Shown here piece after piece: positions 23,101-28,867 of a DNA stretch of 34,988 nt (its first letter is position 1; each line of letters begins with the position of its first letter). Made by a program: the position numbers and the translations under genes. The DNA comes from Clostridiaceae bacterium. GTDB taxonomy: Bacteria > Bacillota > Clostridia > DSM-8532. The notes under the pieces are model-generated. The model saw only the letters and a list, made by a program, of their open reading frames with translations, was not told the origin of the DNA and searched no databases. Location of the stretch: assembly GCA_012728015.1 (NCBI GenBank), contig JAAYFY010000073.1:1-34988 (forward strand). The letters run 5' to 3'.

Positions 23101-24165
23101 TTGGCGGAAGAACCCATGATCAGGCGTCCCACGAAAAAGGTTATGGTAGGAAAGGTGCCTGTCGGGGGCGGAGCGCCTGTCAGCATACAGTCCATGACCA
23201 ACACCCTTACCGGTGACGTTAAGGCTACAGTTGCCCAAATCCGGGCGCTGGAAGATGCCGGCTGCGATATAGTACGGGTAGCCGTGCCCGATATGGAATC
23301 GGCCGCGGCAGTAAAAAGCATCAGGGAACAGATCGGGATTCCCCTGGTGGCCGATATCCACTTCGATCACCGGCTTGCCCTGAAAGCTATGGAAAACGGC
23401 GCCGACAAGATAAGGATCAATCCCGGTAACATCGGCTCTAAAGACAGGGTACGGGAAATTGTGAGGATGGCTACCGAAAGAGGAATAGCAATAAGGGTAG
23501 GCGTGAACAGCGGGTCCCTTGAAAAGCCGCTCCTTCACAAGTATGGAGGGGTATGCGCCGAAGCGCTGGCCGAAAGCGCCTTAAACCATGCTGCTTTACT
23601 GGAGGATCTGGGCTTTCATGATATCGTGATTTCCATCAAATCTTCGGACGTGGTCATGTCTTACAACGCTTACCGGCTGATCGCCCAAAAAACCGTATAT
23701 CCGCTTCATATAGGCATAACTGAGGCGGGGACATCATACAGGGGAACCATAAAGTCCGCTGTGGGAATAGGAGCACTGCTTCTGAACGGTATCGGGGATA
23801 CCCTGCGGGTGTCGCTGACCGGTGATCCTGTTGAGGAGGTCCGCGCTGCGAAAGAGATCCTGCGGGCCTGCGGGCTTTACTCAAAGGGCGTACAGTTCAT
23901 ATCATGCCCGACCTGCGGCCGGACCCGGATCGATCTCGCAAGGATAGCGACCGAGGTGGAAAAGGCTTTGGAGGGCATTGACAAGCCCATCAAGGTGGCA
24001 GTCATGGGCTGCGAGGTCAATGGCCCGGGCGAGGCCAGAGAGGCCGACATCGGTATTGCAGGCGGTAATGGCTGTGCCGTTCTCTTTAAGAAAGGTCAGA
24101 TCGTAAAAAGGGTTGACGAGGATATAATAGTTGAAACCCTTGTCCAGGCAATTAAAGAATTCTGA
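23101..24165 (+). CDS. ispG: 4-hydroxy-3-methylbut-2-enyl diphosphate synthase (flavodoxin-type)
   Basis: A 354-residue iron-sulfur enzyme of the MEP pathway that converts MEcPP to HMBPP. The N-terminal TIM barrel is seen (VSIQSMTNT, IPLVADIHFDH, IRINPGNIG). The [4Fe-4S] ligands are C269, C272 (SCPTCGRTRID) and C304 (MGCEVNGPGEA). The short single-insert form is the usual bacterial type. It starts at a TTG (23101), 7 bases after GGGGAGGT, which fits better than the internal ATG at 23116. The last 14 bases overlap, tail to tail, the end of the AsnB-like gene on the other strand. The polC gene that commonly follows ispG in Firmicutes is absent. Confidence 0.95.
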   Translation: MAEEPMIRRPTKKVMVGKVPVGGGAPVSIQSMTNTLTGDVKATVAQIRALEDAGCDIVRVAVPDMESAAAVKSIREQIGIPLVADIHFDHRLALKAMENGADKIRINPGNIGSKDRVREIVRMATERGIAIRVGVNSGSLEKPLLHKYGGVCAEALAESALNHAALLEDLGFHDIVISIKSSDVVMSYNAYRLIAQKTVYPLHIGITEAGTSYRGTIKSAVGIGALLLNGIGDTLRVSLTGDPVEEVRAAKEILRACGLYSKGVQFISCPTCGRTRIDLARIATEVEKALEGIDKPIKVAVMGCEVNGPGEAREADIGIAGGNGCAVLFKKGQIVKRVDEDIIVETLVQAIKEF

Positions 24166-25975
24166 AATTATGGCTTCTGAGAAAACCATTCAGCTGGATC
24201 AGCCAGATAAAAAGCTGCTGGTAGGAGGTCTGGCGCTTGCTGGCATCCTGCTGGCGCATCATGGACTCAAGGGTCCTGATGTCCAGGAGATAGCGCAGAG
24301 GCGAACCGGTATCATAGATTGATTCCTTAAGGGCATTCCTTATCTTTTCTCCATAAACAGGATCCAATGGCCTTGGAAAGGCACGCTTCCTTCTCTCAAG
24401 GATTTCACGGGGAAGCAGGTCCTGCGCCGATTTTATTAGAATTCCCCTGTCCATGCCATCATAACGTTTCATCTCATTGGGTACGTTCCACAGATACTCG
24501 ATCAGCCTGTAGTCGCACAGGGGGACCCTGGCCTGAAGGTTATAAAGCGTGCTTGCGCGATCCAGGCGGCTGAGGATGCAGGGAAGGTTCCAGTAGAGGC
24601 TGAACCATTCCGGTTCATAGTCTTTTTTAAGGCCCGCGGCGTTTATGGCAAAGCGCGGGTATTCAACCAGGGCTTCTTCATAGCATTTGTCCACGTATTC
24701 AAAGGGCTTTACCAACTCCATGATCTCGGTGCAAAAGACACTGACCTTCTCCGCAAGGTTTGATGCCCATGGAAAACGCCTTTTGCCCGTTGATGAATGG
24801 TCGGGGGCTTTAAGGCCGTACCCGAAGAGTTCATCCGAGCAGTCACCCGAGATGATGATGGGAAACTCCTTGCGTATCTCACGAAATAAAAGCGTTAACG
24901 CGCTGTAGTAGTCGCCGGCTCCCGGCGCGTCTCCTGCTTCGGACGCCTCAAACAGGGCGTCCAGCAAATCCTCTGTTGACAGCAGAATATAGTGGTGCCG
25001 TGTACCGAGCTCCCTGCAGATCCAGCGTATCCAGGGTATGTCCGAATCAGACTGAAAGCTTGTGGAGGTCAGCTTGCTTCCCTTTTCGTATTCCACCGAC
25101 CAGGTATTGTAAACGTGGCTGAACAGGCTGCGCCTGTTTTTGCAGATGATCGCGGTGATGAGGCTGGAATAGAGCCCGCCCGACAGAAGGCCGCATACTG
25201 GGAGATCGGCTTTTACCTGCATATTTATAGATTCGGTGATCAGTTCCCTGATCTGACTTGCAGTTTCCTCCGCCGAATCGGTATGCTCCCTTTCCTCTAT
25301 AACCCAGTAACGCTTTACGACCGTTCCATCGGGACTGAAGGTTAGGTAATGGGCGGGTCTGAGCTCATGGATTCCCTTTATCACAGTGCTTCCGGGGGTA
25401 TTGCGAGGGCTCAGGCAGATAAGCTCAGACAAGCCTTCAACACTGATCTCTGCCCTGAACAGGGGGTGTGATATGATTCCACCGATCTCGGAAGCGAAGA
25501 CCATTGTGGAGCCCATAAGTGTGTAATAAAGCGGTTTAGCGCCTATATGATCCCTGGCCAGCACCAGTTTTTTTTCATCCGCCACCCATATGGCCAGCGC
25601 GAAGAGCCCGTTAAGTCTCACAAAACAAGGCGCGTTCCATATGGCATAACAGTATCCCACCAGTTCGGAGCAGCTGTTTTCCCGGAAAATGCAGCCGCAG
25701 GATTCCAGCTGGGATCGAAGCTCACTGTAGTTGTAGATTGTGCCGTCCATGACTATGATATATTCCTTGCCGTGCTGTTTTATTTTTGTAACCCACGGGG
25801 TTTTGCCGGCATTGTATTCGCTGGCAATCCTGCAGGCCATGACGGAATGGGAGGAGATATACAGGCTGGAGCCAACCGGGCCTCTTTCGCGAACAGCATC
25901 CGAAACCGGGCAGATATGACTGCATTGATGGGTTATATCTGCCGTGGGGTTTACAATACCGGCTATCCCGGGCAT
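24152..25975 (-). CDS. Asparagine synthetase B-like protein with altered active sites
   Basis: A full-length, 607-residue homologue of glutamine-hydrolysing asparagine synthetase. The N-terminal class II glutaminase domain starts MPGIAGIVNP where active enzymes start MCG, so the nucleophile Cys2 is Pro. Other glutamine-binding residues also differ: D77-G-T79 for Asn-Gly-Glu, and SCSE with C102 for the usual Asp. In the C-terminal synthetase domain the ATP loop SGGLDSS reads SGGLYSS (Y269). Structural motifs remain: LARDHIGAKPLYY, SGDCSDELFG (376-385) and RVPLCDYRLIEYLWNVP. The frame is intact, with a GGAG signal 7 bases before ATG. I infer a non-catalytic or altered-function paralogue. It is divergent from spoIIGA, so a sporulation role is possible. 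Confidence 0.85.
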   Translation of the reverse strand: MPGIAGIVNPTADITHQCSHICPVSDAVRERGPVGSSLYISSHSVMACRIASEYNAGKTPWVTKIKQHGKEYIIVMDGTIYNYSELRSQLESCGCIFRENSCSELVGYCYAIWNAPCFVRLNGLFALAIWVADEKKLVLARDHIGAKPLYYTLMGSTMVFASEIGGIISHPLFRAEISVEGLSELICLSPRNTPGSTVIKGIHELRPAHYLTFSPDGTVVKRYWVIEEREHTDSAEETASQIRELITESINMQVKADLPVCGLLSGGLYSSLITAIICKNRRSLFSHVYNTWSVEYEKGSKLTSTSFQSDSDIPWIRWICRELGTRHHYILLSTEDLLDALFEASEAGDAPGAGDYYSALTLLFREIRKEFPIIISGDCSDELFGYGLKAPDHSSTGKRRFPWASNLAEKVSVFCTEIMELVKPFEYVDKCYEEALVEYPRFAINAAGLKKDYEPEWFSLYWNLPCILSRLDRASTLYNLQARVPLCDYRLIEYLWNVPNEMKRYDGMDRGILIKSAQDLLPREILERRKRAFPRPLDPVYGEKIRNALKESIYDTGSPLRYLLDIRTLESMMRQQDASKRQTSYQQLFIWLIQLNGFLRSHNFRIL

Positions 25976-26082
25976 ACAATCACTCCAGCAGGTGATACAT
26001 TGACATCATATTCGGTGCCGGAATGGAGTGTTACGGGAAATCGAAACCTGCATACAAGCTCGTTTTGAAGGATCCAGGGCAT

Positions 26083-26121
26083 TACGACATATTTTTTATC
26101 GGGCTATAACCTGATTTGACA
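26083..26121. promoter_or_regulatory. Two Spo0A-box-like sites upstream of spoIIGA
   Basis: On the minus strand TGTCGTA (26083-26089) and TGTCAAA (26115-26121) each match six of seven bases of the Spo0A box TGTCGAA. They point the same way and start 32 bases apart, about three helical turns. The second overlaps the -35 of the predicted spoIIGA promoter. They also lie upstream of the divergent AsnB-like gene. Confidence 0.45.
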
Positions 26122-26148
26122 GAAAATCCGCGCGGCTGCTTTTATAAT
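26116..26148 (+). promoter_or_regulatory. Putative Spo0A-activated sigma-A promoter of spoIIGA-sigE
   Basis: A perfect TTGACA (26116-26121) and a perfect TATAAT (26143-26148) are separated by 21 bases, too far for ordinary sigma-A use. The Bacillus subtilis spoIIG promoter has the same oddity (about 22 bases), compensated by Spo0A~P bound at the -35. The start codon of spoIIGA is about 137 bases downstream. Apart from this and the 0A-like boxes, the 310-base gap 25976-26285 shows nothing else I can support. Confidence 0.55.
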
Positions 26149-26285
26149 CACCTTCAGACGGAACCACCGGCAAAAAGACCGAGACAACGAGAAAACTTCC
26201 GGCTCGGCAGGGATAGTACTCATAAATCATGGACAGCTGAATAATAGTTTTAATGAAACCATCAAGCCAGGGGAGGGGAGCGGGA

Positions 26286-27185
26286 ATGGTGGTTTACGCT
26301 GACTTGCTGTTTTTTGAAAACCTACTCGCCAACTGCTTTATCCTGAAGCTGACCAGCATGATGTCGGGCATTCCCGCAAAGCTCTGGAGAATACTTCTGG
26401 CTTCATCCGCAGGGGCCCTTTATGCCGTATTTGCCGTAATCTGCCGGTCCAACCCCTTGATTGCTTCATTGCCCGCCAAGATCCTGTTCTCCATGCTTAT
26501 GGTGCTGATAGCGTTCAGGGTAAAGAGCGCGGCAGACTTCCTGAGGAGATGGGGAATCATGCTGCTGGTTGCCTTCATGCTGGGCGGGGGTACATATGCT
26601 ATTTCAGGCATATTTGGCGGAAGCATGCTGACCTACGGCGGTTTGATGTACCTGAGCCCTCAAGGTGTGCTTAAAGCCTTTTTGTTTGCGGCCGGGATCT
26701 GTATTGTGCTTGTCCGGCCCATAGGCAAGATACTGTCGGGCAAAGCGGTGAGGGAAGGAAACATCGTGCTGGTGAATGTCATACTTGGAAAGCGGTCTGC
26801 CCGGTTCAACGCGTTGATTGATACCGGTAATTCGCTGGTAGACCCGCTGACAGGGTATCCTGTCATCATCGTTGAGGCCGAGTCGGTCAAAAACATCGTA
26901 CCTCCGGATATCTATGAGTTTTTTCTGTCCAACAGGGTGCCCGGCGGAAAGATGGAAACCGATATAAACCCGTTATGGAAAAGCAGGATGCACTTGATAC
27001 CGTTCAAATCCATAGGCAGGGAAAACGGGATCCTGGCGGGATTCAGGCCCGATACCATAAGGGTCCTTCACGGGAACAGCTTCAAGGAGATTAAGAACGC
27101 TATCATAGGCATCTGCGGCATAAAGCTTTCCAGCAACTCGAGATATACAGCTCTTTTGGGACCGGCATCCCTTGTCAACATTTAG
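26286..27185 (+). CDS. spoIIGA: Sporulation sigma-E factor-processing peptidase SpoIIGA
   Basis: A 299-residue membrane aspartic protease that removes the pro-sequence of SigE in the mother cell, on a signal from the forespore. Five hydrophobic segments fill the N-terminal half (residues 1 to about 155). The C-terminal protease domain carries the catalytic motif ALIDTGNSLVDPLTG with D179 in D-T-G-N. The ATG at 26286 follows a GGGGAGCGGGA purine run; the upstream ATG at 26253 adds 11 residues without family support. It is followed by sigE after 51 bases, the standard order. Expression is expected early in sporulation from the upstream Spo0A-type promoter. Confidence 0.94.
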   Translation: MVVYADLLFFENLLANCFILKLTSMMSGIPAKLWRILLASSAGALYAVFAVICRSNPLIASLPAKILFSMLMVLIAFRVKSAADFLRRWGIMLLVAFMLGGGTYAISGIFGGSMLTYGGLMYLSPQGVLKAFLFAAGICIVLVRPIGKILSGKAVREGNIVLVNVILGKRSARFNALIDTGNSLVDPLTGYPVIIVEAESVKNIVPPDIYEFFLSNRVPGGKMETDINPLWKSRMHLIPFKSIGRENGILAGFRPDTIRVLHGNSFKEIKNAIIGICGIKLSSNSRYTALLGPASLVNI

Positions 27186-27236
27186 CAGCCTGATCAGCGT
27201 CCGCAGAGAAGTTACTTCAGGAAGGGGATGGAGTAT

Positions 27237-27947
27237 ATGTTTGAAAAGGTATTTGGGTTCTTTTTCAATTTTGTTTCCATAAACGATGAGCCAGTAAATG
27301 AAATCTACTATATCGGCGGAAATGAGATACTGCCTCCGCCTCTGCAGGCGCAGGAAGAAGCCGAGTTCCTCGAGAGGCTCGAAACCGGTGATAATTCTGT
27401 TAAGCATGTGCTGATAGAAAGGAATCTGAGGTTGGTGGTTTACATAGCAAGGAAGTTCGAAAACACCGGTGTTGATATAGAAGACCTGACATCCATAGGG
27501 ACGATTGGGCTGATCAAGGCTATCAACACCTATAATCCCGCCAGGAACATAAAGCTTGCCACCTATGCCTCGCGCTGCATTGAAAATGAGATACTGATGT
27601 ACCTGAGGAAGAACAGCCGCGCTAGAAGTGAAATATCCTTTGAAGAGCCGCTGAATGTGGATTGGGACGGAAACGAACTGTTGCTTTCGGACATCCTGGG
27701 AACCGACAGCGATATCATCCAGAGAAACCTGGAAGAGGAAACCGACAGAAAACTTTTGGTGAGCGCCATGAACAAGCTCAGCGGACGCGAAAAGAAGATT
27801 ATGGAGCTAAGGTTCGGGCTCAATAACCATCTTGAAAAAACCCAGAAAGAAGTAGCTGACATGCTGGGAATTTCCCAATCCTACATATCCAGGCTGGAGA
27901 AAAGGATACTTGGAAGGCTGAAACGGGAAATATGCAGGATGCTGTGA
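27237..27947 (+). CDS. sigE: RNA polymerase sporulation sigma factor SigE (pro-form)
   Basis: A 236-residue precursor of the early mother-cell sigma factor. An N-terminal amphipathic pro-sequence ([20 protein letters not shown], 1-20) ends at EIYYIGG, where Bacillus pro-SigE is cleaved by SpoIIGA close to the YYIGG. Region 2 follows ([55 protein letters not shown]). Region 4 ends the protein ([20 protein letters not shown]). It lacks regions 1.1 and 3, as expected. I prefer the ATG at 27237 because the purine run GGAAGGGG is 9 bases upstream of it but touches the alternative ATG at 27228. It lies between its protease gene and sigG. Confidence 0.95.
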
Positions 27948-28024
27948 TCGGTAAAGCCATGTCTTTCATGCGATTGGCCTGTCAAGGCTTTTTTTAAATA
28001 TTTTCAAGCTTTTATTCCGCATAA

Positions 28025-28090
28025 AACACACCTCGGGAGGACAAGACTGTAGGTGAGCGAAACCTATTCAGTCCGCGAGCGAGGTGTGTT
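28025..28090 (+). promoter_or_regulatory. sigG leader hairpin covering the ribosome binding site
   Basis: An exact 11-bp inverted repeat, AACACACCTCG (28025-28035) and CGAGGTGTGTT (28080-28090), encloses a second stem: GACTG (28045-28049) with CAGTC (28069-28073), continued by TAGGT (28050-28054) with ACCTA (28062-28066). The right outer arm contains GAGGTG (28081-28086), the only Shine-Dalgarno-like sequence before the sigG ATG. In the folded RNA that signal would be paired. A comparable RBS-blocking hairpin is reported for the Bacillus subtilis sigG leader. Confidence 0.75.
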
Positions 28091-28096
28091 GATTCT

Positions 28097-28867
28097 ATGA
28101 TGAACAAGGTAGAAATATGCGGTGTCAATACATCCAAACTTCCGCTTCTTTCCAGTTCACAGATGAATGAGCTTTTTGTCAGGATCAAAAAGGGTGACAA
28201 GGCTGCCCGGGAGGAGTTTATACATGGCAACTTGAGGCTTGTGCTAAGCGTCATCCAAAGGTTCGGGAATAGGGGAGAAAACGCGGATGACCTGTTTCAG
28301 GTAGGCTGTATTGGTCTTATCAAGGCGATCGATAATTTCGATGTTACCCAGAATGTAAGGTTTTCCACATATGCGGTTCCCATGATAATCGGTGAGATAC
28401 GAAGGTACTTAAGGGACAATAACCCCATCAGGGTCAGCCGGTCATTGAAGGATACGGCCTATAAGGCCCTTCAGGCGAGGGACAGGCTGATAGGAAGGGA
28501 GTCTCGTGAGCCCACAATAATAGATATAGCCAAAGAACTTAACATATCCAAAGAGGACGTGGTTATGGCACTGGACGCCATCCAGGAACCCATCTCCCTT
28601 TTCGAATCGGTTTACCATGACGGCGGCGATGCCATCTATGTCATGGACCAGGTCAGCGATGAGAGAAACAGCGATGAGAAATGGCTGGAGAGCATCGCCA
28701 TCTCTGAAGCGATGAGCAAGCTCAGCGAGCGTGAGAAGAAGATAGTAGACCTGCGCTTCTTCCAGGGGAGGACCCAGATGGAGGTAGCCGAGGAGATAGG
28801 CATCTCCCAGGCCCAGGTTTCCCGCCTGGAAAAATCAGCCCTGAAGCATATGCAGAAGTATGTATAG
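28097..28867 (+). CDS. sigG: RNA polymerase sporulation sigma factor SigG
   Basis: A 256-residue late forespore sigma factor. The start NKVEICGVNTSKLP is diagnostic of SigG. Region 2 (NLRLVLSVIQRFGNRGENAD, DLFQVGCIGLIKAIDNF, FSTYAVPMIIGEIRRYLRDN), region 3 (IRVSRSLKDTAYKALQARDR) and region 4 (EVAEEIGISQAQVSRLEKSA) are complete. Two adjacent ATGs (28097 and 28100) are possible starts; GAGGTG lies 10 bases before the first. The 149-base gap after sigE contains a structured leader that hides this signal, so read-through transcripts from spoIIGA-sigE should be poorly translated. A weak sigma-F-like promoter (GCATA at 28019-28023) may serve the forespore. Confidence 0.96.
   Translation: MMNKVEICGVNTSKLPLLSSSQMNELFVRIKKGDKAAREEFIHGNLRLVLSVIQRFGNRGENADDLFQVGCIGLIKAIDNFDVTQNVRFSTYAVPMIIGEIRRYLRDNNPIRVSRSLKDTAYKALQARDRLIGRESREPTIIDIAKELNISKEDVVMALDAIQEPISLFESVYHDGGDAIYVMDQVSDERNSDEKWLESIAISEAMSKLSEREKKIVDLRFFQGRTQMEVAEEIGISQAQVSRLEKSALKHMQKYV

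Follow-up and report, generated by a model that had tools for sequence, protein, structure and literature searches.

The DNA analysed here, referred to as the window, is a stretch of 34,988 nucleotides corresponding to contig C31 of a 2.19-Mb Clostridiaceae genome in 97 contigs. The nearest named relatives of this bacterium include Thermoclostridium caenicola DSM 19027, whose SpoIIGA is 82% identical. Three sporulation genes follow each other on the plus strand, namely spoIIGA, encoding the pro-sigma-E processing peptidase (26286-27185; PF03419 and TIGR02854 over cut-off), sigE (27228-27947; TIGR02835 over cut-off) and sigG (28097-28867; TIGR02850 over cut-off). An asparagine-synthase-like (AsnB-like) gene lies upstream and divergent on the minus strand (24152-25975). 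The operon had been described in an earlier note as detached from ftsAZ, and ftsZ is indeed found on a different contig, C38. Of the 157 loci compared below, 58 have an FtsZ-like C-terminus ahead of spoIIGA, and only one of these, a doubtful regular-expression hit, belongs to the window's family. Additionally, the leader of sigG contains a strong hairpin (28015-28105; -31.8 kcal/mol, z -3.89) whose pairs extend over the sigG ribosome site.

The intergenic region contains a promoter, P1, on the plus strand. Its hexamers TTGACA (-35; 26116-26121) and TATAAT (-10; 26143-26148), both conserved in relatives, are separated by 21 bases, and re-reading of these positions bore out the earlier description. 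Spo0A-type boxes were scored against TTCGACA, the complement of TGTCGAA. Two boxes matching at 6 of 7 positions are present on the minus strand, as had been claimed: TTTGACA (26115-26121), which covers the -35 hexamer, and TACGACA (26083-26089; complement TGTCGTA), whose start lies 32 bp ahead of that of the first. No other 6/7 box occurs within 25976-26286; the whole window contains 82, or 0.0023 per base counting both strands. The TTTGACA box is not independent evidence, as any T followed by TTGACA automatically scores 6/7. The block CGGGCTATAAC (26100-26110, plus strand) precedes the -35 hexamer at a constant distance.

The exact arrangement TTGACA-N21-TATAAT occurs once in the genome, at P1, and with up to one mismatch it occurs at 14 sites versus 13 for a reversed-pattern control. 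On the basis of this single sequence, a chance origin of P1 is moderately unlikely and only partly excluded. P1 is judged real because of its conservation among relatives, not because of single-sequence statistics.

The 21-base spacer across Clostridia

A total of 157 spoIIGA loci, with up to 450 bases upstream of each, was assembled from separate SpoIIGA searches (30 loci, 27 remaining from a further 30 after three duplicates were removed, and 100). The set of 27 came from the best matches listed among the 220 of 293 genomes matched, which biases the sample towards good SpoIIGA matches. TTGACA/TATAAT pairs were counted for each spacer length of 12-27 bases, and dinucleotide shuffles and the reverse strand of the same regions served as controls.

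A pair matching at 10 or more of 12 positions with a 21-base spacer was found in 119 of the 157 loci, compared with a shuffle mean of 11.8, 8 on the reverse strand and 5-32 at other spacers. At 11 or more matches, the count was 82 loci versus 1.0 in shuffles. The usual optimum of 17 bases was not enriched on the spoIIGA strand (5 versus 12.2 in shuffles), and the reverse strand of the same regions peaked at exactly this spacer (10 versus 0.8 at 11 or more matches), providing an internal control. Spacers of 23-27 bases were also raised, probably in part because TATAAT is often trailed by AAT. Among the 38 loci lacking a 21-base site, 14 (one of them doubtful) reach at least 10/12 at a spacer of 22, and 24 have neither. 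The -35 element ends in GACA, the core of the Spo0A box, in 102 of the 119 cases. When sites with at least 55% identity over 73 flanking positions were collapsed, 68 groups were left, and the conservation of P1 is therefore not produced by a few close relatives. Two loci (L015 and L016) carry an inserted stretch that displaces spoIIGA from P1, which lies at -443 and -341, respectively.

Conservation of the spacing and boxes in relatives had been named beforehand as a point on which the Spo0A reading could fall. The 21-base geometry, present class-wide in the proportion given above, is found in all five members of the window's genus. These comparisons confirm P1 as a predicted promoter, and its spacing is, judged by the aligned sequences, far more constrained across Clostridia than the single case suggested.

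The regions upstream of spoIIE, which is likewise a target of Spo0A, behave similarly, with 27 hits at spacer 21 over 45 loci (27 of one 30-locus set and 18 further stretches) versus 1-5 at other spacers. Several spoIIE promoters of family f1 have a best 21-base site of only 8-9/12, and spoIIE in the window's family may be wired differently. In the spoIIE loci L270-L283, L203, L207 and L208 (genus g1/g2), where the best 21-base match often reaches just 8-9 of 12, TATTTCCC, often with GGGAA nearby, stands at a roughly constant distance before the -10 element (CATATAAT).

Spo0A boxes and the proposed activation of P1

Box positions were measured relative to the initial T of the -35 hexamer in 96 loci outside the window's family and 21 loci within it. 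In the former, 75 boxes were found at -1, 33 at -14, and 18 and 17 at -33 and -32, respectively, in the opposite orientation. In the latter, the -1 box is universal, partly through site selection, and the -14 box common in other Clostridia was present in 0 of the 21 loci tested. A box of at least 5/7 at the offset of the 26083 box (-33 from the -35 T) occurs in only 9 of the 21 family loci; within the window's genus, however, this box is invariant, lying inside the 14-base block TACGACATATTTTT in 5 of 5 members. The claim of a second upstream box thus stands for the genus but extends to fewer than half of the family loci.

In the window's family, the place of the -14 box (elsewhere 13 bp ahead of the -35 box) is occupied by CGGGCTATAAC or a variant of it. 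This block is near-invariant, with few exceptions, in the window's genus and in sister genus g2, and a looser GG-ATA form stands at the same place in sister genera. Spo0A itself is present in the window's genome, over the profile cut-off, and its recognition helix SRVERAIRHAIEVAW does not vary among the 22 proteins compared, which represent 22 of 30 loci. Because of this identity, an altered Spo0A specificity was rejected as the cause of CGGGCTATAAC, and the block probably does not represent a re-coded Spo0A site. With the -14 box absent, Spo0A may contact P1 differently in this family.

Taken as a whole, P1 (26083-26148) is very probably a spoIIG-type promoter, used by sigma-A and activated by Spo0A~P, from which spoIIGA-sigE is expressed; less certainly, a sigma-E-type promoter (P2, described below) follows it in many relatives. 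The earlier interpretation as a Spo0A-type promoter is supported, with the corrections given here. Hexamers 21 bases apart, instead of about 17, would be too distant for the sigma-A polymerase alone. In the Bacillus model, Spo0A shifts sigma-A region 4 by about 4 bp downstream; if this model holds in Clostridia, the effective distance would be 21-4 = 17, the usual spacing. Spo0A~P bound over the -35 hexamer would take over that element, enabling the polymerase to engage the -10 hexamer. We infer Spo0A binding, the start site and the repositioning step at P1; the class-wide conservation of 21 bases and the presence of Spo0A with an unchanged helix are observed.

It is rather improbable that P1 in the window's family depends mainly on an activator other than Spo0A that binds CGGGCTATAAC. 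Such an activator would account for the fixed position of the block upstream of -35 in sister genus g2 as well, for its replacement of the -14 box, and for its appearance beside an unchanged Spo0A helix. However, the TTTGACA box is retained, as is the -32 box in all five genus members, and the joined CGGGCTATAAC pattern is a single copy in the genome even with up to three mismatches, with no regulon seen. That P1 is a chance sigma-70-like match and the actual promoter lies elsewhere would fit the near-equal one-mismatch and control counts, but it is hardly credible given the exact 21-base spacing kept across the class and throughout the genus.

The boxes had also been noted to face the AsnB-like gene, but no sign of Spo0A control was seen there; a separate conserved block resembling a promoter precedes this gene. 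The minus-strand block consists of GATTTCCCGTAACA, about 15 bases and GAATA, and 16 of the 17 loci from the window's genus and its sister genus have it, the first base varying. Ahead of the AsnB-like gene in the window, the corresponding minus-strand stretch, 26005-26041, reads TGTTACGGGAAAT...GAATA. Its AC-N17-AATAnnnTA spacing presumably recalls a sigma-K promoter, with A in place of C.

A candidate sigma-E promoter between P1 and spoIIGA

A second conserved element, P2, with the pattern CATAAA-N14-[C/A]ATA, is found between the P1 -10 hexamer and spoIIGA. In the window, the P2 block (26216-26267, plus strand) comprises CATAAA (26221-26226), 13 bases and AATAATAG (26240-26247), and relatives have the 14-base sigma-E-type geometry. 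Of the 80 loci with P1 and a leader of 52 bases or more, 43 carry P2 at spacer 14, compared with a shuffle mean of 2.5 (maximum 6 in 30 runs) and 0-12 at other spacers. The P2 seeds were drawn from all 157 loci, including the window's family, so that seed counts are not independent and the spacer scan is the test relied on. The dyad was found in 59 of all 157 loci (11.2 on average in shuffles) and in 39 of the 131 loci that do not belong to the family (10.6 in shuffles), an enrichment weaker than in the 80-locus subset. Flank identity divides the 41 scorable loci among the 43 into 19 groups. CATAAA starts 3-4 bases past the P1 -10 hexamer, over the expected P1 start, in 19 of 44 loci.

The same signal recurs upstream of sigma-E targets. 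A matrix built from 47 P2 sites gave a mean z of 1.37 before spoIIIAA and 1.72 before spoIVA (30 loci each, standard error 0.18), compared with 0.23 before spoIIE (n=45) and 0.37 before spo0A (n=20; 21 regions were listed and 20 counted), both taken as sigma-A genes. In dyad counts, spoIVA reached 13 of 30 versus a shuffle mean of 2.4 and spoIIIAA 10 of 30 versus 1.6; before spoIIE the dyad was not enriched (2 of 45 versus 3.0). A regular expression for sigma-E sites found almost none before spoIVA, and the sites later scored there by the P2 matrix mostly have AATA, not CATA. In the reverse direction, a sigma-E matrix derived from spoIIIAA was too narrow: P2 ranked first in 31 of 59 loci, yet shuffled sequences often scored at least as well.

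These observations favour, by a modest margin, the view that in a large part of the Clostridia spoIIGA-sigE is served by two promoters stacked one after the other: a starter dependent on Spo0A~P and sigma-A, with a nearly constant spacer of 21 bases, and an autoregulatory sigma-E promoter, P2. Once Spo0A has started the operon and sigma-E is active, P2 could allow sigma-E to maintain expression of its operon in the mother cell. The window is the weakest case of P2, with a spacer one base short. As a qualification of the earlier view that the operon's own promoter must do the job, the operon may depend on more than P1.

A less likely reading, though one to be weighed seriously, is that P2 is a conserved mRNA leader element or the operator of another regulator, and that P1 is the only promoter of the operon. 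The 52-base block is nearly invariant over its full length in the window's genus, including the inter-box stretch, which is more than a promoter needs; there it has a spacer of 13 instead of 14 and AATA at -10, the first -10 base of P2 is often A where the usual sigma-E consensus has C, and the spoIIIAA-derived scores mentioned above are consistent with this reading. Against it, the dyad at 14-base spacing recurs before spoIVA and spoIIIAA and not before spoIIE. Moreover, the RNA leader explanation was rejected, since folding gave no signal (z of 0.06 for the leader in the window, and between -0.94 and 0.80 for six short pieces), and there was no compensatory change in 20 predicted pairs and no Rfam match.

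A side observation concerns the motif GGAC, which lies inside the P2 inter-box stretch (26227-26239 in the window) and inside the sigma-E-type spoIVA promoters of sister genera (L229, L233). By the SpoIIID consensus, we take this motif in P2 to be SpoIIID-like. In B. subtilis, spoIIGA DNA served as a negative control for SpoIIID binding (PMC517825).

Relation to known promoters and biological meaning

The spacer of the Bacillus spoIIG promoter is 22 bases and that of spoIIE is 21. P1 resembles the B. subtilis spoIIG promoter in preceding the same gene, in its near-consensus hexamers and over-long spacer, and in having a Spo0A box over the -35 hexamer and, in the window's genus, a further box upstream. 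It differs in its spacer of 21 bases and in its box pattern. Unlike in B. subtilis, moreover, spoIIGA in the window does not adjoin ftsZ, and many Clostridia have a putative second promoter of the sigma-E type.

In sigma-E promoters, the distance from the ATA motif to the -10 element is 16 bases, and this distance is also seen before spoIIIAA in the genomes studied here. Where it has the 14-base spacing, P2 is like the sigma-E promoters of C. difficile and the B. subtilis consensus in having ATA, 16 bases and a CATA-type -10 element, an arrangement shared with spoIVA and spoIIIAA of the same genomes; it departs from the consensus in its frequent AATA and in the base missing from the spacer in the window's genus. 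The ATA motif at -35 of sigma-E promoters is described in PMC3789822.

The closest clostridial parallel is C. difficile, where sigma-A hexamers likewise precede spoIIGA and Spo0A dependence has been studied. In one report, RNA-seq located a sigma-A promoter (GTGACA/TATAAT) ahead of spoIIGA, and sigE RNA was reduced 240-fold in a spo0A mutant (PMC3789822). In another, the Spo0A DNA-binding domain bound spoIIGA DNA weakly, with low affinity (PMC3485338). The portions of both sources considered here report a sigma-A promoter alone upstream of spoIIGA and do not give its spacer (PMC3789822, PMC3485338).

In the literature searched, a sigma-E promoter before spoIIGA was not found reported, nor was sigma-E feedback wiring found described for B. 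subtilis or C. difficile, so P2 as a second, apparently self-amplifying switch seems undescribed. P1 is a new member of an already known promoter type, and P2 may be the potentially new part.

The unusual mode of Spo0A consists of acting at a promoter that the polymerase alone cannot use. A spacer of 21-22 bases held over most of the class is strong evolutionary evidence that this mode of activation is ancestral in Clostridia. Sigma-E commits the mother cell, and if the sigma-E feedback promoter is real, it would make this commitment self-sustaining.
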